From positions 1-52,657 of the forward strand of contig SXKJ01000364.1 in NCBI GenBank assembly GCA_005778115.1: 52,657 nt of DNA, given 5' to 3'. The stretch is from Planctomyces sp. GTDB lineage: Bacteria > Planctomycetota > Planctomycetia > Planctomycetales > Planctomycetaceae. Of the stretch, positions 23,791 through 45,070 are shown piece after piece. The stretch's first letter is position 1. Each line of letters opens with the position of its first letter. Made by a program: the position numbers and the translations under genes. Below the pieces are notes generated by a model, which worked only from the letters and a program-made list of their open reading frames with translations, made no database searches and was not told the DNA's origin.

Positions 23791-23806
23791 TGGCCCGGGT
23801 TGAGAC

Positions 23807-23906
23807 GTAGGGTGGGACCAGCGTCGCTTCGACGCGCCGGCCCACCAGAAAACACAGCGAGTGAAGATGGTGGGCCGGCGCTCGAAGCGAGCTTGTCCCA
23901 CCCTAC
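23807..23906. terminator. GTAGGGTGGGAC-family palindrome between convergent PKS and lipocalin-like genes
   Basis: GTAGGGTGGGACCAGC and CGCCGGCCCACCA are mirrored by TGGTGGGCCGGCGC and GCTTGTCCCACCCTAC. It is the same family as the inner element at 4807-4909. Placed just after the PKS stop and before the stop of the opposing gene, it could end both transcripts. Confidence 0.68.
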
Positions 23907-23926
23907 ACGAGGTTTTCAACTGGCCT

Positions 23927-24361
23927 CTAACCAACCCGCTCCCAGATCAGCACGCCGACGAGTTCCGTGCCGGCCATTAGGAATGGGGGCGTGCGGAAGG
24001 TGAGTTTGTTTCCTTCAAATTCGTAGAAGCGCAGATTCGTGTGGCCGACCCTATTGGGAAACAGGCTGCCTTCGATGACGTAGGTTAGCTCGCGCTTGGA
24101 TTCGTCGAATTGGTACTTCGCCCAGAATGAGACAAAGCCTTGATACGCGGCGCGAATCTCGTCATCCGTGCCACGCACGATGTCACCGCTGGAAAACTTC
24201 GGGCGATCGGGGCGCATCAGTTGCGCGGACAGAACACCCGTCGCATCGAATAGGATGCTTCCGGCGCAATCCGGTCCCAACGGGTACAGCACCTCGCCCG
24301 TGGACTTACGCATTTCCGAACTCAGCAGCTTCCAAGCTCCGACGAATGGATTGGTGGGCAC
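23927..24361 (-). CDS. Lipocalin-like domain protein
   Basis: 144 residues matching the small lipocalin-like family (lipocalin_5 type): FVGAWKLLSSEMRKSTGEVLYPLGPDCAGSILFDATGVLSAQLM at the start, an internal FWAKYQFDESKRELTY strand pair, and VLIWERVG at the end. Such proteins form small beta barrels that bind hydrophobic ligands, and they occur next to polyketide genes. Here it sits between the PKS and the ACP/KAS III genes on the opposite strand. No signal peptide is seen, so it is probably cytoplasmic. A binding or cyclisation role for the PKS product is inference. It could be unrelated. Confidence 0.75.
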   Translation of the reverse strand: MPTNPFVGAWKLLSSEMRKSTGEVLYPLGPDCAGSILFDATGVLSAQLMRPDRPKFSSGDIVRGTDDEIRAAYQGFVSFWAKYQFDESKRELTYVIEGSLFPNRVGHTNLRFYEFEGNKLTFRTPPFLMAGTELVGVLIWERVG

Positions 24362-24387
24362 GTGCGGTTCTTTTATAAAAGTGTTTT

Positions 24388-24460
24388 GGCGAGCGGGGCG
24401 GCATCAGCCCCCCCCCGGGTTGGCGGAATACACCGGGGGGCTGACGCCGCCCCGCTCGCC
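24388..24460. repeat. GGCGAGCGGGGCGGC-family palindrome, intergenic
   Basis: GGCGAGCGGGGCGGCATCAGC is mirrored by CACCGGGGGGCTGACGCCGC and CCCGCTCGCC. It lies between the ACP stop and the lipocalin-like start, both minus strand. This is an intergenic copy of the element that is in frame in the PKS. Confidence 0.78.
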
Positions 24461-24495
24461 TGGAATTCGATTGGTACGGCCGGTGGCCGACCTAG

Positions 24496-24741
24496 TCATT
24501 GGTCTATTGGCCGAATTCCATTGAGGTAAGTCACGACGTCGTTGAGCGTCTTCAATTGGCGGGCGACATCGTTCGGCAGTTCGACGTTGTATTTCTCTTC
24601 CAATTCCGTGAGCAACGACATCCGGTCGTACGAGTCGATGTCTTGCAGGTCGAGCGACTGATCGGCGACCAGCGTGTCGGCTTTGCCGCGCGCGATCCCC
24701 GTCTCTTTCATGAGCTGAACGATGTCTTTGGTCGTAATCAT
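24496..24741 (-). CDS. Discrete acyl carrier protein
   Basis: 81 residues with the four-helix ACP pattern. The phosphopantetheine attachment Ser is in LDLQDIDSYDRMSLLTELEE, where DSY replaces the commoner DSL. It carries acyl chains for a synthase. Its ATG overlaps the TGA of the KAS III gene in an ATGA, so the two are translationally coupled and probably act together. The long track ORF to 25107 is a shadow of the KAS III gene. It may deliver an acyl group to or from the PKS, which has its own two ACPs. Confidence 0.88.
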   Translation of the reverse strand: MITTKDIVQLMKETGIARGKADTLVADQSLDLQDIDSYDRMSLLTELEEKYNVELPNDVARQLKTLNDVVTYLNGIRPIDQ

Positions 24742-25688
24742 GTGCCGGGCCTTGTTCGTTGAAGTAGGTTGTTGCCCCAGGTGAATCCGACGCCGAATCC
24801 GCTCAGCGCGATGCGATCCAGTATTCCGTCCTCGAGATGTTTTTGGAGCATCAGCGAGATCGACGACGAAACGGTGTTGCCATAATCGGCCGCTTCGAAC
24901 GGAGCCTTCTCGGCCGGCACGCGCATTTTGCGGGCGACGTACTCGACCAGATACTTCGAGCCTTGGTGCAACAGGAACAGGTCGACGTCGCTCGCCGTGA
25001 GGCCGTTTCGTTGCAGCAATTCCGAAAGACTCGGCGGCGCTTCCTGAACCGCGTGCTTGAAGACTGCGCCGCCATCCATTTCCAGGCAATTGCGAAACAG
25101 CAGGCAACGATAACTCTCCGGGAGCGTGCCGAAGTTTGAGTCGATCAACTCATAACCGGGGCCGGTGCGCGTGAAGTACGTTGCGGTCGCTGCGTCGCCG
25201 AAGAGCAGGGCGGTGTCCTTGTCTTGCGGATCGACTTTGTCCGAATACGGATCGCAGGTCATCAACACGGCATGATCCAACCGGGCGGACTCCATCACGC
25301 CGGTGACGATTGTCACTCCATGCGTGAAGCCGGCGCAGCCGTGCGAGACATCGAACGTCATGCAGTGCTTCGCCAGTCCCAACCGGTTGTGAACGATCGC
25401 GGCCGCGTGCGGCACTTTGAATTCCGGGTGCTGAGTGACCACGACCAAAAGCTGGATTTGCTCAATCGGCAGGTTCGTTCTTTGTCGCAGATCGTCGAAC
25501 GCACGTACGCAAAGGTCGGAGTTCGATTCGCCCGGTTCCTTGATCGACCGCTAGACGACACCGAGTTTGTGCTCCAGAAAATCGCGGGCAAAGCCCAACT
25601 GCTCTGCTTTCTCCCAATTCGATTCACGCCGCGCCGGAATGTAGATTCCGATTGACTGCATGCGAGGGCGAGACGTGTTGTTACTCAT
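24738..25688 (-). pseudogene. 3-oxoacyl-ACP synthase III (FabH-like), in-frame TAG at codon 46
   Basis: Condensing enzyme of the KAS III family, full frame about 316 residues from the ATG at 25688. The catalytic Cys is in VSHGCAGFTHG near 116, His in LFLLHQGSKY near 240, and Asn in YGNTVSSSIS near 270. The N-terminus MQSIGIYIPARRE is normal. At codon 46 (25551-25553) the frame reads LGVV-TAG-RSIKEPGE. Homologues have a polar residue there, so a single base change is the simplest explanation. The frame is otherwise open, and the track ORF simply restarts at an internal TTG that would remove the first strands. It is coupled to the ACP by ATGA. It may be a recent pseudogene, an amber read-through or a sequence error. 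Confidence 0.8.
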
Positions 25689-25709
25689 GTCGGTTGATTG
25701 TCTGAATTG

Positions 25710-26810
25710 TCAGGCGTTGACGGCAAAGATCGGAAAGTAACTGGCGACGTTGCCGCGCGCATACTCGTCGATCAACGCGGGAATGTCCTCCCAACTCCAG
25801 ACGCGATCTTCATGCGGCGGCATCCAGTTCTGTTCGGCGGCGAATCGTACCGCGTCGAGTCCTTCGGAGTAGCGTGCGTAGTGCGTGTGGACATGAATGT
25901 GTCGCTGTTGGCATTCAATCGCTCGCGCGATCGACGTGCGCATCCCAGCTTTCCAACCACAGGTGGCGACGACTCCTTGGCGGGCGAGCGCCTTGAGCGT
26001 AATCCGATGTGCCGAACCGCCGATGTTGTCGATGAAGATCGAGACCCCTCGCCCGCCGGTGCGTTCAGCAATCGCGGCCAGCACGCCCTCTTCGAGTCGG
26101 TCCGCGTTGAAATGACTGCGGTCGATCGGTTCGATTCCGGATTGGCGGAGCAGATCGAAGCGATCTGCGTTCGAGCAAATCATGATCACCGGACAACCAA
26201 GCTTCCGAGCCAAGGCGAGTTGCGCGAAGCTGACGCCGCCTCCCCAGGCACAAACGATGGTCTCCTCTGGAGCCACGCCGAGCATTTGCGATTGCCAGCA
26301 GGCATAAGCGACTCGCCAGTTGGCCCAGGCAGAAATGTAGCGCAGCGAGAAGGCGGCCCACTGCTGCAACGTGAATGCGCTGTCGGCCGGAATCGGAATC
26401 AGTTGCCGCTGATTGAGCTTCATCGTCTTGGGCAGCACGCCCATCGTGCCGGGAGCGTCATAGGCCATGATTTTGATCGGGTATCCCTGCTCGTCCCACA
26501 CCGCGTTGCCGAAGACGAGGCACAGATCTCCCTCGCGAACGAGGTCCACTTCCGCACCAATCCGTTCGACGCGGACGACGCCGGCATTGCCGATGACGAC
26601 CGAGTCCTCGCCTCGCAACGCGCAGATGTCGACTGGATCGCGCTCGATCGCATGGAGCATGTTCCCTTCCAGGCAGCCGTAGATCGGCTTTGCCATGACT
26701 TCCTGCGCGGTGATGTCTTGGAAGCAGAATTCCTCTCGGATCAACGCTCCGCGTCCTGGCTGTCGCGCGGTCGAAGGCAAAACCCAAGCGTCGGTAGTGA
26801 TGGTTGTCAT
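25710..26810 (-). CDS. MDR-superfamily reductase, crotonyl-CoA reductase/quinone oxidoreductase-like
   Basis: 367 residues of the medium-chain dehydrogenase/reductase fold. The N-terminal GroES-like part has VVIGNAGVVRVERIGAEVDL and GDLCLVFG. The nucleotide-binding part has ETIVCAWGGGVSFAQLALARKLG, and later FIDNIGGSAH. Typical zinc-binding Cys/His clusters are not evident, and the pattern resembles the CCR-like non-zinc reductases, which reduce 2-enoyl thioesters with NADPH. Next to an ACP, a KAS III and a PKS without an ER domain, a trans-acting enoyl reductase or an extender-unit role is plausible but inferred. I take the ATG at 26810. The SD is weak, and the extra upstream residues of the track ORF run into an inverted repeat. 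Confidence 0.7.
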   Translation of the reverse strand: MTTITTDAWVLPSTARQPGRGALIREEFCFQDITAQEVMAKPIYGCLEGNMLHAIERDPVDICALRGEDSVVIGNAGVVRVERIGAEVDLVREGDLCLVFGNAVWDEQGYPIKIMAYDAPGTMGVLPKTMKLNQRQLIPIPADSAFTLQQWAAFSLRYISAWANWRVAYACWQSQMLGVAPEETIVCAWGGGVSFAQLALARKLGCPVIMICSNADRFDLLRQSGIEPIDRSHFNADRLEEGVLAAIAERTGGRGVSIFIDNIGGSAHRITLKALARQGVVATCGWKAGMRTSIARAIECQQRHIHVHTHYARYSEGLDAVRFAAEQNWMPPHEDRVWSWEDIPALIDEYARGNVASYFPIFAVNA

Positions 26811-26871
26811 CGTGGCGTGCTCATGATCGAATGAGTTGTCGGCGGATTGTAGTGAAACGTGTGGCAGAGGA

Positions 26872-26962
26872 GTCGGGTGTTCGGTTCTTCGAAATTGGCG
26901 GGACGTAGCGTGATTCGCGAACCAGCTCAATCTCGCCAATTCCGAAGAACCGAACACCCGAC
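26872..26962. repeat. Long inverted repeat in the reductase/phospholipase divergent region
   Basis: GTCGGGTGTTCGGTTCTTCG then AATTGGCG is mirrored by CGCCAATT then CGAAGAACCGAACACCCGAC, about 30 of 32 positions matching, with a 27-base spacer. It fills the shared promoter area of two divergent genes. It could be a regulator site or another mobile palindrome. Confidence 0.72.
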
Positions 26963-26994: not shown

Positions 26995-29310
26995 ATGGAA
27001 TCGACATTGAGTGCCGCTTCGCCGGAGGAGCTGGTCCGGTTGGTCGCCGAGACCTCGCTGTTTCGCGACGTGGATCGAGCGGCATTGGATGCAATCAAGG
27101 ATCAATTGGAGTGGGTCGCTCTCGAGGACGGCGAGGATCTGTTTCGTGAAGGGGACATGGTCGACGCGCTCTATGTCGTCGCCGAAGGGTGGCTCGAAGT
27201 CACGAAGGAACAGGAGAACCTGGATGGCGCCCCAACCAATGATCGACTGGTTGTCTCGCGGCTGGCTCCCCCCTCGACGATTGGAGAAATGCAGATCCTC
27301 ACGGGAGGGAAACGGACCGCGACAGTCACCGCGTCACTTCCCAGCGGTCTCGTCCGATTTCCGAAGCCAGCGTTTGACCAGTTAATGGCCCAGGATCGAC
27401 GGATCGTCGAGGAGCTTACAAAGACGATCATGCCGCGATTGTTTCGCGACCAGATGGTGGGGGTGTTGCCGAAGCTGTTTGGGGAACTCGATAAAGCGAT
27501 GGTCCGCGATCTGGAGCAAAAGATGACCTGGCTGTGTCTGCCGCGCGGACAGGTGCTTTGTCGTCAGGGGGACGTGTCGGACAGCTTCTATATCGTGATC
27601 AGTGGTCGCTTACAGGTCGTCATTCAAGATGCCCACGGAATTTCACGGCAGGTGGCGGAGGTGTCGCAGGGGGAATCGATTGGTGAAATGGGGGTCTGCA
27701 CCGGTCAGCCTCGTTCGGCAACGATTATCGCGTCGCGGGATTCGGAACTGGTGCAATTCTCGAAAGAAAAATACGACGACTTCACCACTCGCTATCCGCA
27801 ACTGATGCGGCACCTCATGAAGTTGTTGATCGGGCGTTTGCAGCGAGTCAGCCAGGGAACGAAATCCAACTTTCTCAGTTCGAACATTCTGTTGGCTCCG
27901 GCCAGCAATGACGCTCCGATGGACGAGTTTGCCCAGCGCTTGTTTGTGGCGCTTTGCGAAATGCACTCCAGCAGCGGGCCTGGCATGGAGCCTTGTTTGC
28001 TGCTGACCAGTCGCGAAGTAGAAGGACTAATGAGCGTGCCGGGAATCGCTCAGGCAAGAGGGGACGAGCCGAATGATCTGCGTCTGCGCTCGTGGCTCAG
28101 CCAGCAGGAGCAGCGCTACAAGGTCATTCTGTTTCAAGCCGATCCAACGGTGACGAATTGGACGAAGCGCTGCATCCGCAGTACGGATGAGATCATCTAT
28201 GTCGCGGAGCCCAAACATGCCTCGCCGGGGACGGCCGTCGCGCAGGAGATTCACGATCAGGAGAAGCTCCATCAGACCCGCCGCCGCCGCGCCTTGATGC
28301 TCTTGCACGACGATGACACCGTGCGGCCCTCGAATACCAAACGCTGGCTGAAGGCCCTCCATTTGGAAACGGTTGGTTCCGATCGGCAGACGGGCGCACG
28401 ACATTTTCACTTGCGCCGCAGCAGCGACAGCGACTACCAACGCATCGCGCGGTATGTGTCGAATCGAGAAGTCGGCTTGGCCTTGAGCGGCGGCGGAGCG
28501 CGCGGGTTCGCTCACGTCGGCTGCATTCATGCCATGCAAGAACTGAATATCCCGATCGACATGATCGGCGGCGTCAGCATGGGGAGCTTGGTCTCGGCCG
28601 CCTATGCGTTCGATCCCGCACGCTTCGACGACACGATTCGAGCCATCAAATCGCAGTTGAAAGGTGTGCTGTTCGATCTGACTCCGCCGGTGGTCTCGTT
28701 TGCCCGTGGGCGTCGCTTCGATCAACGCTTGCAAGGCTGGTTCGGAGACTTGGCCATTGAAGACCTGTGGGTTCCGTATTTCTGCGTCGCGAGCAATCTG
28801 ACGAAAGCCAACATCGAGGTCTTTGACACCGACGCCCTGTGGTGGGCCGTGCGTGCCAGTGGCACGTTGCCGGGCCTGACCGCTCCGCAGATTCGTGACG
28901 GCTGCTTGTTGTTTGACGGCTGCCTGCTGGACAACTTGCCGATGGACGTGATGCGCGAACGGATCGGCTCTTCAAAAGTGATCGCGGTCGATGTGGTTCC
29001 GCCTCAAGACTTGAAAGTGGAAGTCACGGAACTTCAGAGTCCATCGGGCTGGTGGTTGCTGTGGAAGAAGCTCACACGAATCGGCCCCAAGGTCGAGCTG
29101 CCAAACATCGTCTCGATCATGCAGCGCGCCTCCGAATTGGGAAGCGTCTACGGCCGGCAGAAGCTGATCGAGAGCCGGCTGGCGGACATTTACCTGCAAC
29201 CGCCGGTCGATGACATTTTCGTCGCCGACTTCAAAAAGGTGGATGATGCGGCCCGGATCGGCTACGAGCACAGCAAAGACCGGCTGGCCGAATGGTGGGC
29301 CAAAGGCTAA
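26995..29310 (+). CDS. NTE-like patatin phospholipase with two cNMP-binding domains
   Basis: 771 residues. Two cyclic-nucleotide-binding domains occupy about 15-135 and 160-290 (LFREGDMVDALYVVAEGWLEV; RQGDVSDSFYIVISGRLQV; GEMGVCTGQPRSATI). A middle region follows with ILFQADPTVTNWTKRCIR, as in neuropathy-target-esterase proteins. The patatin domain has the oxyanion GGGARG near 499, nucleophile GVSMGS near 528 and catalytic Asp in FDGCLLDN near 641, where Cys takes the usual Gly/Ala place. The family hydrolyses phospholipids and lysophospholipids at the membrane. Control by cyclic nucleotide is possible. In this context it could release the fatty acid used by the oxidative enzymes nearby; that is inference. 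Confidence 0.9.
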   Translation: MESTLSAASPEELVRLVAETSLFRDVDRAALDAIKDQLEWVALEDGEDLFREGDMVDALYVVAEGWLEVTKEQENLDGAPTNDRLVVSRLAPPSTIGEMQILTGGKRTATVTASLPSGLVRFPKPAFDQLMAQDRRIVEELTKTIMPRLFRDQMVGVLPKLFGELDKAMVRDLEQKMTWLCLPRGQVLCRQGDVSDSFYIVISGRLQVVIQDAHGISRQVAEVSQGESIGEMGVCTGQPRSATIIASRDSELVQFSKEKYDDFTTRYPQLMRHLMKLLIGRLQRVSQGTKSNFLSSNILLAPASNDAPMDEFAQRLFVALCEMHSSSGPGMEPCLLLTSREVEGLMSVPGIAQARGDEPNDLRLRSWLSQQEQRYKVILFQADPTVTNWTKRCIRSTDEIIYVAEPKHASPGTAVAQEIHDQEKLHQTRRRRALMLLHDDDTVRPSNTKRWLKALHLETVGSDRQTGARHFHLRRSSDSDYQRIARYVSNREVGLALSGGGARGFAHVGCIHAMQELNIPIDMIGGVSMGSLVSAAYAFDPARFDDTIRAIKSQLKGVLFDLTPPVVSFARGRRFDQRLQGWFGDLAIEDLWVPYFCVASNLTKANIEVFDTDALWWAVRASGTLPGLTAPQIRDGCLLFDGCLLDNLPMDVMRERIGSSKVIAVDVVPPQDLKVEVTELQSPSGWWLLWKKLTRIGPKVELPNIVSIMQRASELGSVYGRQKLIESRLADIYLQPPVDDIFVADFKKVDDAARIGYEHSKDRLAEWWAKG

Positions 29311-30370: not shown

Positions 30371-30557
30371 GTTACGCCGTCACAACGGATACGGCGCGAC
30401 AAAACCGCTTGCTCTGGATAAGCGCGCGGCGAATCGCAAATTGACTCTCCGTTCTTTACACAATCACTGGACGTAATTTCGTCGCGTCTACGCATCATTC
30501 CTCCGGCCTTGAAGCCCCGCGTTCCCCGGCAGAACGGGGCGAAGGAAAGTGTTTTCC

Positions 30558-31934
30558 ATGCTTTTTGAGAAAATCTTCGCGAGAACCGTCGCACCGTTTG
30601 CCGGTCTGCCCGGACCAAAGCCCCTCTTTCCGATTGGCAATCTGCTGGACTTTCTTGGCAAGTCCACCCGGCCGTGGGAGGTCATGGCCAGTTACGGCGA
30701 GCGTTTTGGCAGCATGAGCGTCATGTGGATGCTCAACCAGCCGGCGATTGTGCTGAATGATGCGCGGCTGATTACCGAGGTGCTCTGCACTCGGACGAAG
30801 GATTTCTACAAGGACGAGCCGTGCGGGGCGCTCATCCCAGTGCTGACTCGGTCCAGCCCAAACATCAACAACGGTGCCGAGTGGACGCGAACCCGAACGC
30901 AGAGTCCGCTGACTCAGCCTTGGATCGGCGAATGGCGGCGAGCTCAGATGCCGGCGCTGAGAAGCGTCTTGCGACGCTGGGGCGAGCGGATGGCGTCTGT
31001 TACGGATCGTGAGGCCGTGCCGCTTCAAAACGAATTGCAGCGGATCACGTTCGACTGCTTTTCTGTCGCGACCATGGGCAGTGAACTCTCCGATGCCGCC
31101 TATGCCGACTTCATGTCGCTGGCGTCACAGGGAAGCAAACGCATGTTGACGCCTCGTCGGCCGAGTCCCGATCTCAATTCGCGTGGCCAGGAGACTCGCA
31201 AGCGATTCCTGAGAGTTTTGCGAGACCGCTATGACGCGGCAGTGGCGAGTCCGAGGCCCGCCTCGTTCGATCTGCTGTCGATGGCAATGCGTCAGAACAC
31301 GCTATTGCCGCCGGATGAGTTATCGGCAGAGATGGGCAACGTGTTTTACGGCGGCTGCTTCTCCGTCCCCAGCACGATTGTCTCTACGCTGTATCTGCTG
31401 ACTCAGCATCCCAACGAATCACAGAAACTGAAAGCGGCCGTTCTTCAGCTGGATGACGACTGCGATCTGGAAGCATTGAATGACTGCAAGCCGCTGGATT
31501 ATGCGTTGCGAGAAGCCATGCGATTGCTACCGGCGGTGCCGATGTTCGGCCGGCGCGTGCTGCCAACCGCGGCGACGGAAGTCGGAGGATGTTTGTTGCC
31601 GCCGAATACCAGCATCTGGTTGGTGAATTGGCTGCTGCAACGATCGGGTCCGCATTGGGACCGTCCGCTGGACTTCTTGCCCGATCGTTGGGGAGGGGGC
31701 GTTGCGGAAGCGAACCCGTTGGGGAGCGAATACTTTTTCCCCGAAGGCCGCGGCCCTCGCATCTGTCTGGGAGCTGAGTACTCGATCTTTTACATGAAGC
31801 TGGTGCTGGCCACGTTGCTTCGCCGCTGGGACGTTGAGTGCGGCCAAGGGCAGCCGTATGACGCGGACCAGAAATTCTTCTTCGGCGTGCGCATGCCAAT
31901 GGGCCTACGAGCGCGGCTTCGCCGCCGGGCGTAG
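30558..31934 (+). CDS. Cytochrome P450 lacking the I-helix acid-alcohol pair
   Basis: About 458 residues. The N-terminus has the proline-rich LPGPKPLFPIGNLL. The K-helix ExxR is in LREAMRLLP, and the haem-ligand loop FPEGRGPRICLG puts the axial Cys near 403. In the I helix, where oxygen-activating P450s have AGxDTT, this protein reads GGCFSVPST at the same distance from the following QHP. The acid is Phe and the Thr is Ser. P450s without this pair (CYP74, CYP152, prostacyclin synthase) use peroxides rather than O2 plus reductase, and no redox partner is nearby. The start is either the ATG at 30558 or GTG at 30549 just after AAGGAA. The stop TAG lies in a palindromic element. Confidence 0.9.
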   Translation: MLFEKIFARTVAPFAGLPGPKPLFPIGNLLDFLGKSTRPWEVMASYGERFGSMSVMWMLNQPAIVLNDARLITEVLCTRTKDFYKDEPCGALIPVLTRSSPNINNGAEWTRTRTQSPLTQPWIGEWRRAQMPALRSVLRRWGERMASVTDREAVPLQNELQRITFDCFSVATMGSELSDAAYADFMSLASQGSKRMLTPRRPSPDLNSRGQETRKRFLRVLRDRYDAAVASPRPASFDLLSMAMRQNTLLPPDELSAEMGNVFYGGCFSVPSTIVSTLYLLTQHPNESQKLKAAVLQLDDDCDLEALNDCKPLDYALREAMRLLPAVPMFGRRVLPTAATEVGGCLLPPNTSIWLVNWLLQRSGPHWDRPLDFLPDRWGGGVAEANPLGSEYFFPEGRGPRICLGAEYSIFYMKLVLATLLRRWDVECGQGQPYDADQKFFFGVRMPMGLRARLRRRA

Positions 31935-32001: not shown

Positions 32002-33675
32002 TCACAGCGTCTTGAGGTACTCCAGCAACGCCGCGCGTTCGTCGTCGGTGATCTTGGTGCCGTAGAGATGTCCGGCGTTGGATTGGCCTGGCACCGACGT
32101 GTCGAACTTGGTGCTCCCTTCGGCGGGAGCCGTCTGATAGCCAACGCGAGCGGGATCGAATTGGCGATTGCCGGTTTGGAATGTCTTCGCCCGCTTCTCC
32201 GGCGGCAGCCGCAGATCGTGCAGGCTGGCGATCGAGCCGTTATGCAGGTACGGAGCCGTTGCCCAGATGCCGGCCAACGGGGCGGCGCGGTAGACGAGCA
32301 GGCTCTTCACCAGTTCATTCACCTCGGTGTCATTCTTAGGCAATGTCGGCATCTCGCGATGCCCCAGCATCGATACGAGTTCGTCCGGCGTGGGCTTGAG
32401 TTCTTGAAGACCTGACATTGTGAAGTTGGCCAGCAAGCCAAGGAACATGACGGCGGCAGGAACGTCCGATTTACCCTCGTAGGCGCTTCCCTTAAACATC
32501 GGCGCGAGAATGCCCGTGCTCGCGGTACGCTCGACAAAGTAGACGGCGTAGGTCGGATCGGTGCCGACTTCCTGGAACGGTACGAGAGTGACTTTGATGA
32601 ATTGCTTTCCGTATATGTTCGGTTCGGTTTGTGGATAGGGCGGACGGTTCGAGTGACATTTGGCGCAGCTTTCCCGCTCGAAGATCTTGGCACCTTTGTC
32701 GGCCTTGGCACGGTCGATGGCTGCGAAGATGGACTCTGGCCATTTTGGAGGTTGGAGGTCCATGAGCGTGTCGTACATCTTGTCGAGTTCTTTCAAATCC
32801 GCAGTGGTTTCGAATTTGAGACCGTTCGCCACGGGTGTGACTTTCGTCCTTCCGAACACTCCGATGACTTCGCCAACGCGACGCATCGCCATGTTGTGAA
32901 CCGCGCCGTTCCAAAGGACTCGATCTTCCTGTTGTGTCAGCCAGATCGCGGGATAACTGACCGGCATGTTGGGGACGCGATAGTTGTCCTTGTTGCCGGC
33001 TGAGGTGGCGTTGGTGGCATTCATCAGCGTGTTGAGCGCGTCGAAGCATCCCGGCCCTGTTGGGTTCGCAGATCGGTTCCGCGCGGCCCAGTCGGTCATC
33101 GCGATCGCGTACTGACTGAGCTGCGTTTTGAGCTCAGCCGCGGACTTCTCCGAGTATTGGTTGGCGAGCACTCGCTTGGCGAAGCGATCAAATTTCTCCG
33201 GCTGTGCCAACGTGAATCGGAGCGCGTCGGTCAGCGCCTGTTGCCAGCCGGTCAGATCGACGAGGTTTGGTCCGCCGTCGATGCGGATGCGTTTCTCTTT
33301 GCTATGAACCTGCGCGGTATGGCAAGCCGCGCAGGTCAGACCGGTTCAAATGACGCCATCCGGCGCGCGGCCGTTCGCGAAGCCGACGGGGAATCCATCG
33401 GGATTCGACTTGTTGACCGGGTTTCGCAGGAAGCCATACGACTCAAGAAAATCATCGTCGCGAAACAGCTTCTGCGAGTGTGCCTGTTCGAGTGCGAGAA
33501 ACCAGCGATGCGGCAGGACTTGAGAGCCTTGCGGCCGGTAGTAGTAGTTCTGCCGGTCCGCGTCCTTCAAACCTTGGTCGAGGTAGATGACGTCGTCGCC
33601 AAAGCTGAGCGAGGGCAAGGCCAATGCGGTGCTAACGATGCTCAACAACCAACAACACAGAGACCAAGTTTTCAT
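32002..33675 (-). pseudogene. Di-haem c-type cytochrome, RoxA/cytochrome-c-peroxidase-like, in-frame TGA at codon 110
   Basis: About 557 codons. A signal peptide (MKTWSLCCWLLSIVSTALALPSLSFGDD) follows AAGGA. The first haem site CAACH sits near 115-119 and the second CAKCH near 336. The C-terminus has GIWATAPYLHNGSIASLHDL, GNRQFDP and FDTSVPGQSNAGHLYGT, as in the RoxA-like di-haem proteins. These are periplasmic oxygenases or peroxidases; Pseudomonas di-haem relatives are reported to dioxygenate oleic acid. At 33346-33348 the frame reads GVI-TGA-TGLTCAACH; a TGG Trp codon is the likely ancestor. The frame continues open on both sides. If translation restarts at the track ORF start it would lose both the signal peptide and the first haem. 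Confidence 0.78.
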
Positions 33676-33692: not shown

Positions 33693-33757
33693 GTAGCACA
33701 GGCGGCTCGCCTGTGGCTCTTCAGGGATGATTCCAGCAGGCGAGCCGCCTGCTCTAC
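33693..33757. repeat. GTAGCACAGGCGGCTCGCC-family palindrome
   Basis: GTAGCACAGGCGGCTCGCCTG is mirrored by CAGGCGAGCCGCCTGCTCTAC. The right CTAC contains the stop codon of the first tandem kinase. A short perfect relative is in frame in bioA at 51055-51077. Confidence 0.72.
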
Positions 33758-36700
33758 GCCAGTTGTTCCAGGAGTATCTTCGCGGCGACCAGATCCGTGG
33801 TGTCGAAGCCTTCGGTGAACCATTGATAGCACTGTTGCAACTCGCGCACAGATTTGTCGTCTCGCTGGTTGCGGTTTTTGAAACGGCAAAGGCTGGTGAG
33901 TGCTTTCAATTCCCAAGACTTCGAGTTGCGGCGACGGGCTAAGTCGATGGCCTCGCGGAAGCATTCTTCGGCGGCGGCCGCATCGGCAGCAGGTCGGCCA
34001 GCGAGGATTTCTCCGCGCAGGCGGAGTAGCTCTGCTTCCAAGTAGAGTTCATTGTGCTCGCGCGAGATGCGTAAGCCGGTCTCGGCTTCAACGAGCGCTT
34101 GATCGAAGTCTAGCAATTGCAGATGCGCTTCCGTGAGACTTACCTGGCCGTAGCACATGTGGAGTTCGGCACCGGTGGCGCGAAACGCTTGCATGCCTAA
34201 TCGGCAGTTTTCGATCGATTCCTTGTAGCGGCCCTGGAGATTCCACAAGTGCGACTGCGCCACGCGGCCTGTGGCGGCCCAAAACACAAAGGACTGCTCG
34301 ACGGTAATTTTCAGAGTCCGTTGCACGAGAGGCTCCATCTCGGCCGCGTCGCCGCAAAAGCCAATCACCCATGAGGCGTGATTCGTGCCGTGGACCAGCG
34401 AAAACGGATCGTTGAGTCCCTCGGCGATCCGGACCGCCTCGCGAGTGAGTTGGCGTGCCTGGTCTGGATAACCCAAGGCCCAGCGCGCATGGGCCGCACA
34501 GACGCGATGCGTGATGGCCGAGTTTTGTCCGGTATGTGGAGCCAAGGCTTTGCAGCGATCGAGATCCTCGTACGGCCGAGCCAGCTCAAAGTGCTTCCAC
34601 GACTCCGCGAAGTTGCCGCGATGGACCTGGGAACAAATCGGTGCGTAATGAGCCTCCATCAGTAACCCCGGGTCGCCGGTTTGCTCGGCCAAGTCGAGCA
34701 ACTGCTGGCCCAATGTGACGGACGCATCCAATTGATCGAGGATCAGGCTGCGAGCCCACATGCCCCACGAGATGAAGAACAGCGCACCCACATTGTTGAG
34801 CCGGATCGCCAGTTCGCGTGCGCGTTCCAGGACTTGCCCCGGCTCGTCATGCGCGTAACCTCGCGCCGCGAGCAACACCGTCGCCAGCGGTCCTTGCAGG
34901 CCGAGTTCGCAGCCGTCGCGCTCGGGAGATTCGGGGAGAGCCGCAACCGCCTGGAGTCCTTTGCGAAAATGTTCGATCGCACCGAGATTCGCAAATCCGG
35001 CTTGAGCCTTCTGTCCCGCCTTCAGCCAATAATCAACAGCGCGTCGTGTCGCCCCCGCCTCGGTCAAGTGGTGCGCGAGCAACTCGGGTTGCGCCTCCGC
35101 GGTCTTCGGGAATTGTTGTTCGAGCACTTCGGCGATGCGGAGATGACACGTTTGGCGTTTCTTCGTGAGCATCGAACGATACGCAGCGTCCTGCAACAGC
35201 GCGTGTTTGAAGATGTAACCTGCCGCCGTCCCTTGTCCTTTTTGAAACAGGATTTCGGCTTTGACCAGCTTGTCGAGTTCGAGTTGCAGTTGGTCTTCAG
35301 GCAACGAGCAAGCCGCGGCCAGCAGACGGAATCCGAACTCGCGACCGATCGTCGCGGCAATCTGGATGACTTTGCGATCAGCAGCCATCCGATCGAGCCG
35401 CGACAGCAGCAGATCCTGCAACGTTGCCGGGATGACATTCAGCAACGTCGCGGTATCAGTCCCTGCATCAGCGCGATCCAGGATGCCCGACTCGACGATG
35501 ACGGCGGTGAAATCTTCGATGAACAGCGGGATGCCGTCAGTGCGCTCGATGACTTGTTGCAGAATCGCTTCGGGAATTTCGCGACGGTGCGTGCGCTTGC
35601 GCATCATCTCACCGACCTGTCGCTTGGTCAGGCGATTCAACGCGATCTGAGTTTGATGCGGCTTGCTCTTCCACGGCGTCTCGAACTCCGGGCGAAAAGT
35701 CAGCACGCTCAACATGCGGCCGCTTTCAAATTGCGAGACATGCTTTTCGAGCAGTTCCAAGGTTGAGGCATCGATCCAGTGCAAGTCTTCGACGATGAAG
35801 AGCGCGGGGCTGACCTCCGCCAGGTTCCTGAGCCAGGCCAACAACAATTCTTCGGTCACCTCTTTCAGCTTTTGTGGCGACAACGCCAGCGCTGGAAAAC
35901 GGGCGTCGGTCGGCACGCTCAGGATTCCGCCGAGCAGCGCGACATTCTCGGGCGATTCGAGTTTCAGTTCGCGCAGATACCTTACCAAGGATTCCAGCCG
36001 CTCGGTGGCCGAGAGGTTTTCCAGGTCGAGCAACCGCGAGAAGAACTCCACGATCGGGAAATAGCTGGTCCCTTGGTGATACTGCGAACAACGCAGCTCA
36101 ATAACCGCCACTCGTTCCGCGTCATCGCGCAGGACATGCTCACGCAGTTCGCGGATCAGCCGAGACTTTCCTAGTCCGGCGTCGCCGATTAACAGCACAA
36201 TCTGCCCCAGCTCTTCCTGAGCCTGCTCCCAGCGATCCTTCAGCACGCTGAGTTCCGTGTCGCGGCCAACCAGCGGTGTCAGATTGCCCGGATCGACGAG
36301 CTCGACCCGATTCCGTGACGCGGCTTCCTTAACGACCTTGAACATTTCGACGGGCTGCAGGATGCCGCGCACGTTCTGAGTCCCCAGCGACTCGCAGTCG
36401 AAATACAACGCGACTCGCTGGTGCGTCGTCGCACTGATCGAAATGGTCCCCGGCATGGCAATCGTGTTCAGTCGAGTGGCGGTGTTGCGCGCATCGCCGA
36501 CCAAAGAGACCCTGAAATCTTGCGAACCACCGAGTTGCTCGGCGACGGCTTCTCCCGAATGGACAACGACCCACGCCTGGCTTGCCGATGGCAAGTCGGT
36601 GTGGTTTGTTCCGCCGGCCGCGAGTTCTCGCATGACTTGCAGAGCCACACGCACCGCCCGTTGAGGCGCGTCTTCAAACGCTTGCGGAAAACCAAAGCAC

Positions 36701-37989
36701 TCAATCACCGCCTGTCCCGAACTGACGACCGTGGTGCCACCGAGTCGCGCGATCTGTTCGCTGACGAACGACGCGAACGACAGCGACTGATTGTGCAACA
36801 ACTCCGAGACTGACGACGTGTTTTCGGCGTTGCAGTTTTCCTGGATGTCATAGTCGAAGATCGCCACCGTGACCTGCCGCAATTCGGCGTCGCGGAGCGA
36901 GCGGCAGAAGGCCGATGCGTCGCTATCGGGCTCCGAACGGGTCGCGAAATCCTGGCCCGGACGTCGCTGGACCGTCTGCGACAGATCGCTGAATTTGGCG
37001 AGGATGTTCGTCAATTCTTCAGCGAACTTCGTGGCCGAAGCGTGTCGTTGCGAAGGGGATTTCGAGAGGGCCTTCAGGCAGACGGCATCAATTTCGCGTG
37101 GCAATTCGCGACGCAGTTTCGATGGCGGGTCGGGCTCGCGCGACACGATTTGCCCGTAAAGCGAAGTGATCAGGCCTTCAAACGGCCGTTGTCCCGTCAC
37201 CATCTGATACAGAATCACGCCCAGGGCATACACGTCGGTCGCGGGTCCAATTTCGTCATGCCGCGCTTGGATTTGTTCGGGAGCCATGTAGGCGGGGCTC
37301 CCCATGACCGCCCCCTCCTGTGTCAGTTCCGCTTCCCCTTCTTTCCTCCAGCGAGCCAAGCCGAAGTCCATGATGATCGGTTCAAGCTCGCTGGTCAGCA
37401 TGATATTGGCCGGCTAGAGATCGCGATGCACGATCCCCTTCTCATGCGCCTTCTGCACGGCCGTGGCCACCGTTCATGCCAGCGCCACCGCTTGGAAGAG
37501 TGGGAGCGAGCCCGACGCTTTCAGTCTTTGAGACAACGGCTGGCCGTCGATGTAAGACATCGTGAAGAAGTGCCACCGCTCGAACTGGCCGACGTCATAA
37601 ACCTGACACAGGTTGGGGTGTTGCAAGGTCGCCATCGCGCGAGCTTCGCGATAGAGACGCTCGACGATTTCCACATCGTCGTCCTCTTCAAAGAAAGGAA
37701 TCTTGAGCGCGACCTTGCGATCCAATTGCCCATCGTGTGCTAGATAAACGGCTCCCATACCGCCCCGTCCGAGTTCTCGTTCGATGCGATATCGTCCGAA
37801 TTGTGCGGGTACGGACTTGGCCGCACTAAGGCGTTTCGCAGGCTTGTGACTTTTCTGCTCGTTGCCCATCAGAAGCGTCGCGCCGAGGTCCGATGTCTCG
37901 GCTTTGACAGACGGATTCGCATCCTTCGCGGTATCGATTCGGAACTGATCTTGTTGACTCATGGGCGCTGAGTCAGAAGTCGAAGGCAT
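33754..37989 (-). pseudogene. Kinase / cyclase-like / AAA ATPase / TPR regulator, two in-frame stops
   Basis: A 1412-codon frame. It opens with a Ser/Thr kinase domain (RELGRGGMGAVYLAHDG from about 72). Next comes a degenerate class III cyclase-like domain (RQVTVAIFDYD; GGTTVVSSGQAVIECFGFP) without the metal-binding Asp pair. An AAA ATPase (LLIGDAGLGKSRLIREL; LFIVEDLHWIDAS) and a long TPR tail follow. TGA at 37474-37476 (codon 172, probably a lost Trp) and TAG at 37414-37416 (codon 192) interrupt the kinase. The TAG replaces the Lys of HRDLKPAN, the catalytic loop. The frame stays open for over 1200 codons beyond, so decay is recent or the bases are wrong. The remainder, ORF 33754-37401, could make an ATPase-TPR protein. 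It is a tandem paralogue of the next gene. Confidence 0.82.
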
Positions 37990-38467: not shown

Positions 38468-41400
38468 TTAAAGCCCTGCGAGGAGTGCCTTGGCCGCTTT
38501 CAGGTCGGGCATGTCGAAGCCTTCGGTGAACCAGTTGTAGAGCGGTTCCAAATGCTGACGGATCTCGGCGAGCTGACCGCGCTGCTGCCAGATTCGGCAG
38601 AGTTGCAGCATGGTCCGCAGTTCGTGCATCTTCGCTCCTTGGCGAATCGCGACCGCCAGTGCATCGCGGTACGAAGACTCGGCTTGATCCAGTTCGCCGC
38701 GATCGAAGGCGAAGTCGCCACGAGTGCGGAGCAACTCGGCGTGCATGAAGTACTCGCCGCCACTTTGATCGGCGAACGCGGCGTCGAGCTGCTTGACCGC
38801 CGCGTCACGTTGGCCGGCTTGCCACAGTGCGTCCGCGAGATGACACCGGTACTTCGGAAAGAGGATGAACGAGCCGGTGGCTTCCAACTGCGTGAGAGCG
38901 GCTTGCAGCGCGTCGATCGCTTCATGAAAACGGCCGAGATGTTTGAGACCGACTCCCTTGCAGCCCGTTCCGAGCGCTACCCAGAACGCGAAGCCTTGCT
39001 CGTCGGCGATCCGTCGGCAGCGTTCGCCGTATTCGATGGCCTTATCGCCCAGACCGGCGAACTCATACGTTTGTCCGACTTTCCATTCGGTCATCTGCAG
39101 CGTGAAGATGTGCTTGAGGTCGACCGCCATTTCGAGAGCCTCTTGCAGCCGAGCGAAGGCTTGATCGGCATAACCTAACTGCCAGAGCGCCATGCCGTGA
39201 TACGCGAGGTTCAACGGACCACTGTTTTGCTGCGTGATTTTCGCGAATTCGATACTGGCTTCGCGATGATGATGCCGCGTGCCGATCTCGGCATGCTTGC
39301 AGGCGGTCGGGAAGTCTCCTGCGTAAAACGACGTGCAGTTCGAAGCCCAATACGCTTCGGCCATCATCCCCGGTCCCTGAGCCGCCTCGGCCAGAGCGAT
39401 GACTTCGGGACAGCGCTGGTAGCAGTCGGTAAACCGGCCGCGAATGAAGAGCCACTCCCAGTTCGCGCACAGCACCGGAAACAACGGAGCCCCCTCGCCC
39501 AGATGCCGGCAAATCTCGATGCACCGATTCTGCACCGGTTCGACTTCCGGAGCAGCATAGCCTTGCAGCGCCATCAGCACGCCGCTGATCGGCAGCTTCA
39601 AGCTCAGTTCCAACATGTCACGCTGTGGCGACGCGGGCAGCGTCATCGTCAGCGCGAGTCCGCGCTCGAATTGCTGCAGCGCGGCGACGTTGGCCGATTG
39701 CTCCTGCGACTTTTGTCCGGCCTTCAGCCAGTACTGGATCGCCCTGTCGGTGATGCCCGCCTCGGTGAAGTGTTGCGCCAGCAAGGCTGGCTGCGAGTTG
39801 GCGATATCTGGGAAGTTTGCTTCCAACACTTCGCCAATGCGTTGATGACACGCTTGCCGCTTCTTGGTGAGCATCGATCGATACGCGGCGTCTTGCAGCA
39901 GCGCATGTTTGAAGATGTAGCTCGCTTCGGTCGCTTGCCCCTTGTGAAAGAGGATCTCCGCTTTGGCCAGCTTGTCGAGTTCCTGTTGCAGACCGGCTGC
40001 GGGCAGCGTGCAGGACGCGGCCAGCAGCTCGAAGCTGAATTCGCGGCCGATGGTCGCGGCAAGCTGTAATGACTTCGCGATCGGCCGCCATGCGATCGAG
40101 ACGAGCCAGCAGCAAATCGTGCAATGTCGCCGGAATGACATTCAACAGCGACGCAGCGTCGGCTCCGGCATCCGTTCGATCCAAGATTCCCGACTCGACG
40201 ATGACGACGGTGAATTCTTCGATGAACAGCGGGACGCCGTCCGTCCGATCGATGACTTGTTGCAGAATCGCTTCGGGGATGTCGCGACGCTGCGTCCGCT
40301 TCCGCATCATCTCGCCGATTTGCCGCTTGGTCAGACGGCTCAGTGCGATTTGCGTTTGGTGCGGCTTGCTCTTCCACGGAGTCTCGAACTCTGGGCGGAA
40401 CGTCAGCAGGCTCAGCACGCGTCCGCTCTCAAACGCCGAGACGTACTTTTCGAGCAACTCCAACGTCGAGGGATCGAGCCAGTGCAAGTCCTCGACAATG
40501 AAGAGCACCGGGCTGACAGCGACCAAGTGCTTCAGCCACTGCAACAGCAACTCTTCCGTCTGTTCTTTCAGCTTCTGTGGCGACAACGCAGGCACCGGAA
40601 AGCGGGCATCGGTCGGCACGCTGAGCATCCCGCAGAATAGCGCGACGTTCTCGGCCGATTCGAGTTTCAAGTCGCGCAGATAACGCACGACGGTTTCGAG
40701 CCGCTTGGAGGCGGAGTGGCCTTCAAAATCCAGCAGTCGCGAGAAGTACTCCACGATCGGGAAGAAGCTGGACCCCTGATGATACTGCGAGCAACGTAGC
40801 TCGATGACGGCGGCCCCTTCTGAGTCCTCGCGAATGACATGCTCGCGTAGTTCGCGAATCAGCCGCGACTTGCCCAGCCCCGCGTCGCCGATCAGCAGTA
40901 CGATCTGGCCGAGTTCATCGAGTGCCTGCTCCCAACGATCTTTGAGGATCGTCAATTCCGTGTCACGACCCACCAACGGTGTCAGGTTACCGGGATCAAC
41001 CAGATCGACTCGATTTCGCGAGGCCGCTTCCTTGATGACTTTAAAAAGTTCGGCCGGCTGAGACATGCCGCGAACACGCTGTGAGCCCAGCGACTCGCAT
41101 TCAAAGTACAAAGCCACTCGCTGATGCGCCGCCGTACTGAGGACGATTGATCCCGGTTCGACGACTGTGTTCAGCCGCACGGCCATGTTGCGAGCATCGC
41201 CGACCAACGAGATCGCCGCTGCGATGCCATCCCCGACCACTTCGGCCACCGCCTCGCCGGAGTGAATCGTGACCCACGCCTGTTTGGCCGAAGGCAAGTT
41301 TTTGTTTCTTTGATCGGGCGCGGCGAATTCACGCATGACCTGTAAAGCCACACGCACCGCTCGCTGTGCGGCATCGTCGAAGGCTTGCGGAAATCCAAAG

Positions 41401-42946
41401 CAAGTGATGACTTCCTGGCCCGAACCCAGCACGGTGACGCCACCCAACTTGGCGACCTGTTCGCTGACGAACGACGCAAAGGACTGAGCTTGTTCGTGCA
41501 GCAGCTCTGAATGCGAGGTCGCCGAAGTGTACGAGAGGGAACTGTCCTCAGCCTCGTAATTGAAGATCGCGACCGTGACCAACCGCAATTCGGCATCGCG
41601 ACGGGTCCGACTGAGAGAGACCGCGCTCCCTTTCTGTTCGGACTCCGAGTCGAAACTCGCTGATTCCGAATCGAGATCGACGCGAAAGCTCATGGTTGGC
41701 GACAGGTCGCCGGCTCGGCCCAGAAATCGCGCCAGCTCTTCGGCAAAGTCCGCGGCGGAGGCGTGCCGTTCCGCCGGCGCTTTCGCGATGGCCTTCAGAC
41801 AAATCTCATCGATTTCGGCGGGAAGATCGCGACGCAAACTCGATGGCGGGGCGGGAGTGCGCGACACGATTTGTCCAAAGATCGAAGCAGCCGATCCTTC
41901 AAATGGCCGATGCCCCGTGACCATGACGTAAAGGATGATGCCCAACGCATACACGTCGGTCGCGGGGCCGATTTCGTGATGCCGCGCCTCGACTTGTTCC
42001 GGAGCCATGTACGCCGGGCTGCCGAAGACCGCTCCGGTTTGAGTCAGCTCGACCTCACCGGCGATCTGACGTCGGGCCAGTCCGAAGTCCATGATGATCG
42101 GCTCAAGATCACTGGTCAGCATGATGTTGGCCGGATTGAGATCGCGATGCACGATGCCCGACTCGTGAGCCTTCTGCACCGCCAGCGCGACCTTTTCAAC
42201 AGAGTGACCGCTTGCAACAGGGTCAGCCCACCCGCCTCTTTCAGCTTTTTGGAGAGCGGCTGCCCGTCGATGAAAGCCATCGTCAGAAAGTGCCACTGCT
42301 CGAATCGTCCTACGTCGTAGACCGGACACAGGTTCGCTTGTTGCACCGTCGCCATTGCCCATGCCTCGCGATAGAAGCGCTGCACGGATTCGACATCATC
42401 ATCGTCGCGGAAAAACGGAATCTTCAGCGCGACCTTGCGATCCAACTGCCCGTCGTGAGCGAGATACACCGCCCCCATGCCGCCCCGGCCCAGTTCCCGC
42501 TCGATTCGGTAGCGGCCGAACTGCTCAGGCACTTTGGTGGGATCACTAATGCGAGGCTGCTCCGCGGTTTCCGAGCGTTCTTGTTTGCCTCCCACCACCA
42601 GTGTCTGGCCCTCGCGAGCTGTTTCGGCTTTCGGCGCGGAACCGGAAGGGCCTACTGACGACGCAGATTTCTCAACCAGCTTCGAGATCAATTCCGAGTG
42701 TTCGGGAAATCGAGCCACGTACTCGGCGGGCGAAACGGAATCCCCCGCGTCGCGACGAACGCCGAACTCCACGAGCAACAATTCTGGCAGTAGCGCGGCT
42801 TGCAATTCGTCGGAAACAAACGGCAAGAAGTCTTCGATCCGCGGCTGCCGTCCCCCTTGCATCGACTTCAGAAACGCGTCCTTGGCGAAGTCGAGTCGCT
42901 GTCGATCAAGTGGGTTCAAAGAATCATTCCGTAGTGGCGATGTCAT
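38468..42946 (-). pseudogene. Kinase / cyclase-like / AAA ATPase / TPR regulator, two frameshifts
   Basis: Tandem paralogue of the preceding gene. It has a planctomycete kinase leader (IEDFLPFVSDELQAALLPELL), the kinase domain (RELGRGGMGAVYLAHDG; HRDLNPANIM with Asn for Lys), a degenerate cyclase-like domain, Walker A LLIGDAGLGKSRL, Walker B LFIVEDLHWLD and a TPR tail. The frame breaks near 42206: LLQAVTL reads on as VEKVALAVQKAHE only after restoring one missing G. It breaks again near 40066, where an extra A separates MAADREVI from QLAATIGREF; the paralogue is uninterrupted at both places. The track therefore shows three overlapping ORFs. The ATG at 42946 has GGAAG upstream; 42985 is an alternative. 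It may be a pseudogene or two indel errors. Confidence 0.82.
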
Positions 42947-43203
42947 CGCGACTTCCATCGACGATCGTGAGTTAAGCGGCTGCACGAAAACAAGTCATGA
43001 CGTGGGCGATAGTAATCACGAACTCGCTGGATTTCGCCTATGACGCCCCCTCATCACAGGAGTCGATCGGAGAAAAGGCCTTCTCCCGACAGGAAGAGCA
43101 ACAGGATGGGATGAACCGGACCACTCTCATAATGACCTAGCGGAACCGAGAGTGTCCTATTTCGGTCCGTTTGTGCTTAATCGCTTCGCCTCGAATTGTC
43201 GCC

Positions 43204-43282: not shown

Positions 43283-45070
43283 TCAAACGTTAATGCTCTG
43301 AGGAACGCCGCTGGGAGTGAGCGTCTCGTACGGCCGGCGCGTCAGATTGCGTTCGTTGATCTTCTGACCGATGTCTGCCAACCGTTTTTGAAACTGTTGC
43401 AGCGGAGCCGTCACACGCTGGTCGTGAAACTGCTGCCGGTGGTACTGGCCGAGTTCCGTGTAATGCATCGTCCCTAGCAGGTATCCCAAGTCCATCTGCA
43501 GATCGGCCATGTCGAGCGTCGGCAACATCGCCAGAAAATCGGCTTCGGTCGCGCCGGTCTTCAGGGTGGGAGCCGGGCGGTATCCGGCCAGCGGCATGTT
43601 GGGCGTGTAGCTCATGCAGTCGTACTGCGGGAAGTTGACCGCCGCATGCTGCACGCTGCACGTGTAGACTACGAAGGTCACGACCTCAATCAAATCTTCG
43701 ATCCGTTGGATCGCGCCGTTGTTGGGCAGCCCCTTGATCCTCCCGCCGTTGTCGGCCGCCAGTTCGCGACCCCAGGCTTGCAGCTCCGGATCTCGCTGAA
43801 GTTCCGCGTCGTTCAGATAGTACAGCCGCAAGTACGCGCTGACCCATTCGTGAATCGCGTCCCAATACAGCAGCGTATCGTCCCGATACGGGTAAATCGG
43901 AAATGCCTCGCGGTCGTCCACTCCCCGTTGAGCGAACGTCAGCGGCAGCAGATCGTTCATCACGCGAGTGCTTTGCACGCCGTTCACGCACACTTTTCGG
44001 GAGGTGTTGATCGTGCCCCCCATGAGCTTATCGACCCCTCCCTTGTCGGCGATCAGATGCTTCCAGGCGGCGCTGTTGATGGCCAGCGTCCCTTCAAAGT
44101 GCGGCCAAAGGAGCAGAGCCAAAGGATGACTATCGTGAAGCTGCCGGTAGGACGAGATGACGAACGCCTCCATCGTCAGATGCGTGCGGCCCAGATGCGT
44201 CGACGCCTCGTGGATGTTACCGTCGGCAGTCTCGACGATCGTCTTGGCAATCAGCCAGTTGTAGCCATCGTTGGGCGTGAAGATCGGATTATCCGCCGCC
44301 GGCTTCTGTTTGCATTGAATCGCGACCGGCAGCAGTTCTTTCTTGGCACCCGTGATCACGAACAACGCCAGCGGCGCGTAAAGGTACTTTTGCCCGTTCG
44401 AGTACGTGCCGAGTTCGGCCCCGTCCAACGGCGCATAATCGGCCAGATACAGCCGGCCTTCGGCGAGCGCCGCGTTCAAGGAATCCCCCGGCGCACCGAT
44501 CCGAAACATCTCGTTCGTGATCTTCATCCGTTCGTCGAGAGTTTTCAGTCGCTTAAGCATCACTGGATTCGGGCCGGCAGTGCGCATGGAGGCGAAGACG
44601 CGGTCGTCCATGAAGTCTTTGGCGATCGGCGGCAGACCAAAGGCACGAAACAGATCGGCGTATTCTTGCAGCGACTTCGCGTGATTCGCTGGCGCACCGA
44701 ATCTGCCATCAAAATGCAGCGCTTCGGAGATGTGATGTGTGAGCGTGAGAACCGAGGCTTCACCGATCTCTATCAGCTCGCGAATCACCTTGTGCTTGTC
44801 AGCATGGTTCTGGGCGGTACGCGTTCCCAATTCCAATTCCGCGCGATTCTCCAACGCATCGATCACTCGCTTACCAACGATTCCCATCCACTCGAAGCTG
44901 AACTGATCGGTAATTGGGAGATGCTTCAAGACCGCCAGCGGCGACACATGCGAGTAGTCGTACTTGTACGATCGCTAATCCCAGAGAATGCGAACCTTCC
45001 GCGTGAGACGTCTCAGCATGGAGGCTTGCTGAGGCAAGCAGGGGGCGGGCTGAGGCAGAAAGGCGGTCAT
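43283..45070 (-). pseudogene. Lipoxygenase, in-frame TAG at codon 32
   Basis: Non-haem iron lipoxygenase, about 595 residues from the ATG at 45070, which has AGGAG upstream. It inserts O2 into polyunsaturated fatty acids. Motifs are STHLGRTHLTMEAFVISSYR near 285-305 (two iron His), HDSHPLALLLWPHFEGT, HAAVNFPQYDCMSYTPNMPLA near 475 (third His, Asn), and a C-terminal GVPQSINV, where Val takes the place of the usual terminal Ile ligand. Codon 32 (44975-44977) is TAG within LWD-TAG-RSYKYDYSHVSPLA. The frame and family similarity continue on both sides. The track ORF restarts at an internal GTG and would lose about 41 residues. Lipoxygenases are uncommon in bacteria. The neighbouring P450 and di-haem gene suggest oxylipin chemistry. 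Confidence 0.85.

Follow-up and report, generated by a model that had tools for sequence, protein, structure and literature searches.

Cytochromes P450 that metabolise hydroperoxides downstream of a lipoxygenase (LOX) define oxylipin signalling in plants and animals. The prostacyclin synthase CYP8A1 and the thromboxane synthase CYP5A1, both with an atypical I helix, rearrange without a reductase the peroxide delivered by a partner dioxygenase. The CYP74 clan, which comprises plant and metazoan allene oxide synthases (AOS), hydroperoxide lyases and epoxyalcohol synthases together with members from Methylobacterium, pairs with LOX and is without the acid-alcohol pair of the I helix; its hallmark is a nine-residue insertion in the heme-binding domain (PMC8124189, PMC10813956). 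The bacterial CYP152 peroxygenase family (P450 BSbeta, SPalpha, OleT) has an altered heme loop and carries Arg-Pro at the acid and alcohol sites (Arg242-Pro243 in BSbeta) (PMC5818669). In the fungal dioxygenase-P450 fusions, i.e. linoleate diol synthase, fungal AOS and epoxyalcohol synthase, the P450 isomerises the hydroperoxide of its partner (PMC13049297). The oleate diol synthase pathway of Pseudomonas aeruginosa uses two RoxA-type di-heme enzymes, PA2077 and PA2078, which act on fatty acids and their hydroperoxides; no P450 or LOX is described there in the sections of the source consulted (PMC4496055).

For bacteria, the literature consulted mentions only the CYP74-clan members of Methylobacterium and the catalase-LOX fusions, and searches of the open-licence literature found no LOX-P450 pair described from Planctomycetota. 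A separate P450 clade that accompanies LOX in several planctomycete families would mean that this partnership arose there independently.

The P450 gene and its I helix

The window is the whole stretch of 52,657 nucleotides analysed here, and is one contig (C343) among the 515 of a planctomycete draft genome of 7.4 Mb. The P450 gene and its motifs are as follows.

30558..31934 (+): acid-less cytochrome P450, 458 aa from the ATG (alternative GTG at 30549); Pfam p450 E=5.7e-40; orthologues at 87, 77 and 66% identity
31350..31367 (+): I-helix motif GGCFSV, residues 268-273 in GTG numbering, placed by alignments
31512..31523 (+): ExxR motif EAMR, intact in alignments
31743..31772 (+): heme loop EGRGPRICLG, Cys ligand present, Glu399 in place of the usual Phe at -7

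The ATG at 30558 is the likely start, favoured over the GTG by the orthologues. The reading frame is free of stops and, compared with the 87% orthologue (G481), has a dN of 0.077 and a dS of 0.576 (dN/dS about 0.13); the gene is intact and under purifying selection. The profile match, the ExxR motif and the cysteine in an FxxGxRxCxG-like loop, whose Phe is here Glu, place the product in the P450 superfamily. AlphaFold2 applied to this protein and three orthologues gave no usable model (pLDDT 36).

The I helix reads FYGGCFSVPST. The initial annotation had seen GGCFSV replacing AGxDTT (more generally AGx(D/E)TT), and the alignment bears this out, the distance to QHP being the canonical one. When aligned with 21 other planctomycete P450s, Phe271 takes the place of the acid and Ser272 that of the alcohol. 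The same annotation had both members of the pair replaced by Phe-Ser; this stands for the acid and not for the alcohol, since a serine occupies that site, so that the pair is only half lost. The Phe-Ser pair is unchanged in orthologues at 87, about 77-78, 66 and 63% identity.

The heme loop (FFPEGRGPRICLG) is of normal length except for two extra residues upstream. The exchange at -7 to the heme cysteine had escaped the initial annotation; the residue is Glu in the subgroup of the window P450, Tyr or Phe elsewhere in the clade described below, and Phe in the 21 other planctomycete P450s. By counting, this Phe is also absent in the PDB-verified sequences of AtAOS (Pro), CYP152A1 (His) and prostacyclin synthase, PGIS (Trp).

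A separate P450 clade in Planctomycetota

The clade was gathered from a scan of a collection of genome contigs, which led to three orthologues (87, 77 and 66% identity), from a search of 170 genomes of the family, which gave 13 clade members (E<1e-79), and from a 14-sequence profile, which added six further members in two other families of the same class. All 20 sequences carry F, Y, I or V at the acid site followed by Ser at the alcohol site, with G268, G269 and S272 invariant; the motifs found are GGCFSV, GGVFSG, GGVFSC, GGVFSA, GGAFSA, GGAYSA, GGNISS, GGNISA and GGDVSS. Because Phe-Ser is kept in the orthologues and [FYIV]-S throughout the clade, the exchange in the window P450 is not due to chance.

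A maximum-likelihood tree was built with the 14 clade members known at that stage, 18 further P450s from planctomycetes and seven references. Of the latter, AtAOS, CYP152A1 and PGIS (3b6h) were verified against the PDB, and CYP3A4, CYP102A1, CYP120A1 and CYP55A1 entered as unverified sequences; CYP5A1 was left out, and CYP74 is represented by one sequence, AtAOS, on a long branch. The 14 members group in a single clade (support 100/100) whose stem is 1.41 changes per site long, and AtAOS, CYP152A1 and PGIS fall outside it. As the references sit on long branches, the deep placement of the clade is uncertain. In profile comparison the closest matches are CYP3A4 (E=3e-33), CYP120A1 (1.5e-24 by hhalign, in a nearly full-length alignment) and CYP102A1 (1.4e-20), followed by PGIS (3e-11), CYP152A1 (2e-9) and, weakest, AtAOS (2e-6). 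The window P450 has the GGx[FYIV]S motif, belongs to the fully supported clade and shares its genome with a LOX. Plasmid records yielded only generic P450s, about 25% identical.

A phylogeny against CYP74, CYP152, CYP8A and CYP120 had been proposed as a check; the clade groups with none of these and is no closer to CYP74 than to ordinary monooxygenases. The likeness to CYP74 goes beyond the pairing with LOX, in that seven of the 20 members have TNFFGG, where the distance from Asn to GG is that of FNTWGG in plant AOS. The Asn is however not conserved across the clade: the catalytic Asn of CYP74, three residues before GG in AtAOS, corresponds to Val in the window P450, which has an Asn one residue earlier. 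With the nine-residue insertion absent, Ser where AOS has Ile, this Asn out of register, and a position apart in tree and profile, membership in CYP74 was rejected. CYP152 was rejected for Phe-Ser instead of Arg-Pro and its distance in the tree, CYP8A for the Asn-Met of PGIS and its unrelated position, and CYP120 for the AGHETL of CYP120A1, which falls outside the clade. Fungal fusions were set apart by description: there the P450 is fused to a heme dioxygenase of the cyclooxygenase superfamily, whereas here P450 and LOX, the latter a non-heme iron enzyme, are encoded by separate genes near each other. Judged from these alignments and the tree, nothing supports membership in CYP74, CYP152 or CYP8A, and the group is best filed as a new clade, a previously unnamed P450 branch of Planctomycetota linked to LOX and probably convergent on LOX-pathway chemistry.

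Since the clade retains the alcohol and loses only the acid, it would allow one to ask directly which changes in the I helix are required to convert a monooxygenase to a hydroperoxide isomerase.

In a second group of planctomycete P450s the I helix reads AAH[ML]T, with the acid lost and Thr kept. It includes the other P450 of the window genome (locus L001, contig C268 of G000) and sequences from four further loci (L033, L035, L037 and L038); four of the five source genomes have no LOX.

Co-occurrence with lipoxygenase

The initial annotation had placed a lipoxygenase 10 kb from the P450. The gene is genuine, and the distance is 11.3 kb.

43283..45070 (-): lipoxygenase; Pfam Lipoxygenase E=9.3e-57; PDB bacterial 15-LOX E=1.4e-106; iron-ligand motifs HLGRTH and HAAVN

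LOX was recognised at 43283-44947(-); the full frame starts at 45070 and is interrupted by TAG at codon 32 (44975-44977). The codon is CAG in the closest relative, a single transition.

That P450 and LOX work together, as had been suggested from their proximity, is now strongly supported by distribution and gene order. In the family, LOX is present in 21 of 170 genomes, including all 13 with a clade P450 (Fisher p=2e-14). In a class sample of 398 genomes, the P450 occurs in 16 and LOX in 25, with 15 genomes carrying both (p=9e-20), and collapsing to genera leaves p=5e-11; these tests allow only partly for the relatedness of the genomes. The distribution is patchy within genera, e.g. in genus g1 the P450 occurs in only two of twelve genomes, each of which also has LOX. 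Both P450-bearing genomes of genus g310 contain an extra LOX (49% identical) near the P450, which is absent from two LOX-bearing relatives without the P450. The one exception in the class sample is G717, where LOX was not detected and the P450 lies 51 bases from a contig end.

LOX genes with single in-frame stops (TAG and TAA) are also found in two genomes without the clade P450, G404 and G479.

Gene order and neighbours

The strongest evidence for the link is physical. In three genomes, each from a different family (G498 of f1, G701 of f101 and G645 of f5), the LOX gene immediately adjoins that of the P450, in the same orientation and about 95 to 400 bases away. The order P450, RoxA-like di-heme protein, kinase and then LOX found in the window recurs in three genomes of family f101 (G555, G622 and G679), with a P450-LOX spacing of about 14-15 kb. 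Between the two genes the window contains:

32002..33675 (-): RoxA-like di-heme cytochrome c peroxidase-type protein; NCBIfam CytoC_perox E=9e-105, Pfam RoxA-like
33754..37989 (-): Ser/Thr kinase-AAA-cyclase-TPR protein (Pfam), frame interrupted
38468..42985 (-): second kinase-AAA-cyclase-TPR protein (Pfam), frame broken

The RoxA-like gene, overlooked in the initial annotation, lies directly downstream of the P450 and convergent with it; it is the point of likeness to PA2077/PA2078. Orthologues adjoin the P450 in the same three f101 genomes, and one is present in the G701 cluster. An in-frame TGA at 33346-33348 (codon 110) is TGG in relatives, again a single transition. The stops in the LOX and RoxA-like genes are the two that were compared with relatives; both kinase genes are also frame-broken and the KASIII-like gene has an in-frame TAG at about 25550. 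These broken frames reflect either assembly or base errors, a mixture of strains, or real decay of the region, so that in this assembly the pathway may have decayed or been wrongly assembled. Other genomes have intact copies.

The neighbour that recurs most constantly is the kinase-AAA-cyclase-TPR gene, which lies beside or near the P450 in most clade loci; in the window, G481 and G453 such a gene also adjoins LOX. This raises the alternative that P450 and LOX merely travel together, as parts of a shared island or under shared kinase regulation, and catalyse unrelated reactions. The kinase flanking both genes would fit, as would the separate contigs on which they lie in several genomes (genus g276 and genomes of g304). 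Direct tandems in three families and near-perfect co-occurrence even where the genes are unlinked make such a coincidence very improbable.

Upstream of the P450 are found genes of lipid metabolism:

14864-16069: FadL-type porin, preceding the lipid/polyketide cluster
16462-23790: FAAL-PKS, a FAAL-ACP-KS-AT-methyltransferase-ACP-thioesterase megasynthase
16462-26957: whole lipid/polyketide cluster, which also encodes a lipocalin-like protein, a stand-alone ACP, a KASIII-like protein and an enoyl-reductase-like ADH
26995-29310: neuropathy-target-esterase-type patatin phospholipase with cyclic-nucleotide-binding domains

The patatin phospholipase may supply LOX with free fatty acids. A further alternative is a peroxygenase, which would use H2O2 or the LOX hydroperoxide to hydroxylate a different substrate, e.g. 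a lipid or the product of the nearby polyketide synthase. Loss of the acid, a LOX supplying peroxide and the FAAL-PKS in the window agree with this, but the Arg-Pro pair that binds the carboxylate in CYP152 is replaced by Phe-Ser, the tree places CYP152 at a great distance, and no PKS was seen in the available flanks of the P450 relatives; we regard a peroxygenase as rather improbable. As the PKS is not seen in those flanks, the FAAL-PKS cluster was also dropped as the definer of the P450's role.

A UbiH/geranylgeranyl-reductase-like FAD oxidoreductase (L065, 4761-6206; also L075, L078 and L079) lies between P450 and kinase, or close by, in genomes of g303 and g304.

Proposed function

From the sequence features and the company of the gene, the most likely reading, which we hold at about even odds, is that the P450 acts downstream of LOX in an oxylipin pathway, as a hydroperoxide isomerase, lyase or epoxyalcohol synthase. 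LOX would peroxidise a polyunsaturated fatty acid to a fatty-acid hydroperoxide, which the P450 would bind at its ferric heme; after cleavage of the O-O bond the chain would be rearranged, cleaved or rehydroxylated, and neither O2 nor a reductase would probably be needed. With a bulky hydrophobic residue in place of the acid, the proton relay of O2 activation would be blocked, and the invariant serine could hold the hydroperoxide or a water. The lack of an AOS-type Asn in the window P450 would be no obstacle, since such enzymes can split the O-O bond whether the residue close to the iron is an amide or nonpolar (PMC13049297). Other peroxide-processing P450s also deviate from the canonical acid-alcohol site (PMC5818669, PMC13049297), and among RoxA-like di-heme enzymes are a dioxygenase of fatty acids and a diol synthase that uses hydroperoxides (PMC4496055).

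Several observations were counted in favour of hydroperoxide chemistry: the [FYIV]-S pair, the co-occurrence with LOX, the tandems and the repeated gene order, the second LOX of g310, the loci scanned being free of ferredoxin, the chemistry of the RoxA-like enzymes, and the loss of the heme-loop Phe in the references. Counted against it were the hydroxyl still offered by Ser, the CYP74 Asn being in register in only seven of 20 members, G717, the separate contigs in g276 and g304, the nonsense codon of the window LOX, and the AAH[ML]T group, which is acid-less and not tied to LOX. Acid loss by itself is weak evidence because of this unrelated group, and it was rejected as sole proof; the argument from the absent pair straight to hydroperoxides or peroxide, as the initial annotation had it, was too strong.

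P450s without a carboxylate at the acid site can remain monooxygenases, as do CYP7A1 and CYP51. An ordinary monooxygenase within the LOX pathway, dependent on O2 and a reductase and hydroxylating or epoxidising a fatty acid or a LOX product, would take Ser272 as its alcohol and receive protons via water or another residue. The serine invariant at the alcohol position, profiles nearer to CYP3A4, CYP120 and CYP102 than to CYP74, and a second acid-less group without LOX linkage in these bacteria all speak for it; the residue at the acid site is on the other hand always bulky and hydrophobic, and it is unusual that the heme-loop Phe has changed to Glu or Tyr, as it has in two subgroups. The loci scanned showed no recognisable ferredoxin gene next to the P450, the motif hits there looking like chance or antisense matches; bacterial redox partners are frequently encoded elsewhere. 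On balance a monooxygenase is possible but on the unlikely side.

A self-sufficient hydroperoxide-processing P450 is a plausible reading of these data, with substrate, product and independence of a reductase as its predicted properties. The lost acid and the regular company of LOX suggest that these bacteria have a route of their own to signals made from oxidised fats, comparable to those known in plants and animals. More tentatively, with somewhat less than even confidence, the clade may be a new, independently evolved P450 family of reductase-free fatty-acid-hydroperoxide isomerases or lyases in Planctomycetota, part of a dedicated bacterial oxylipin pathway together with LOX, RoxA-type enzymes and kinase sensors; a further convergent origin of the dioxygenase-P450 partnership of plants, animals and fungi, which this reading would entail, is put forward with the same reserve.

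A second LOX type, about 34% identical, adjoins a catalase-domain protein in five genomes (L065, 3-1292; L068, 8678-11290; L070; L072; L074). This protein of ~870 aa has a hydrophobic N-terminus and a C-terminal catalase domain and may be a catalase-type hydroperoxide enzyme; the divergent LOX with its catalase neighbour recalls the catalase-LOX fusions (PMC11719350).
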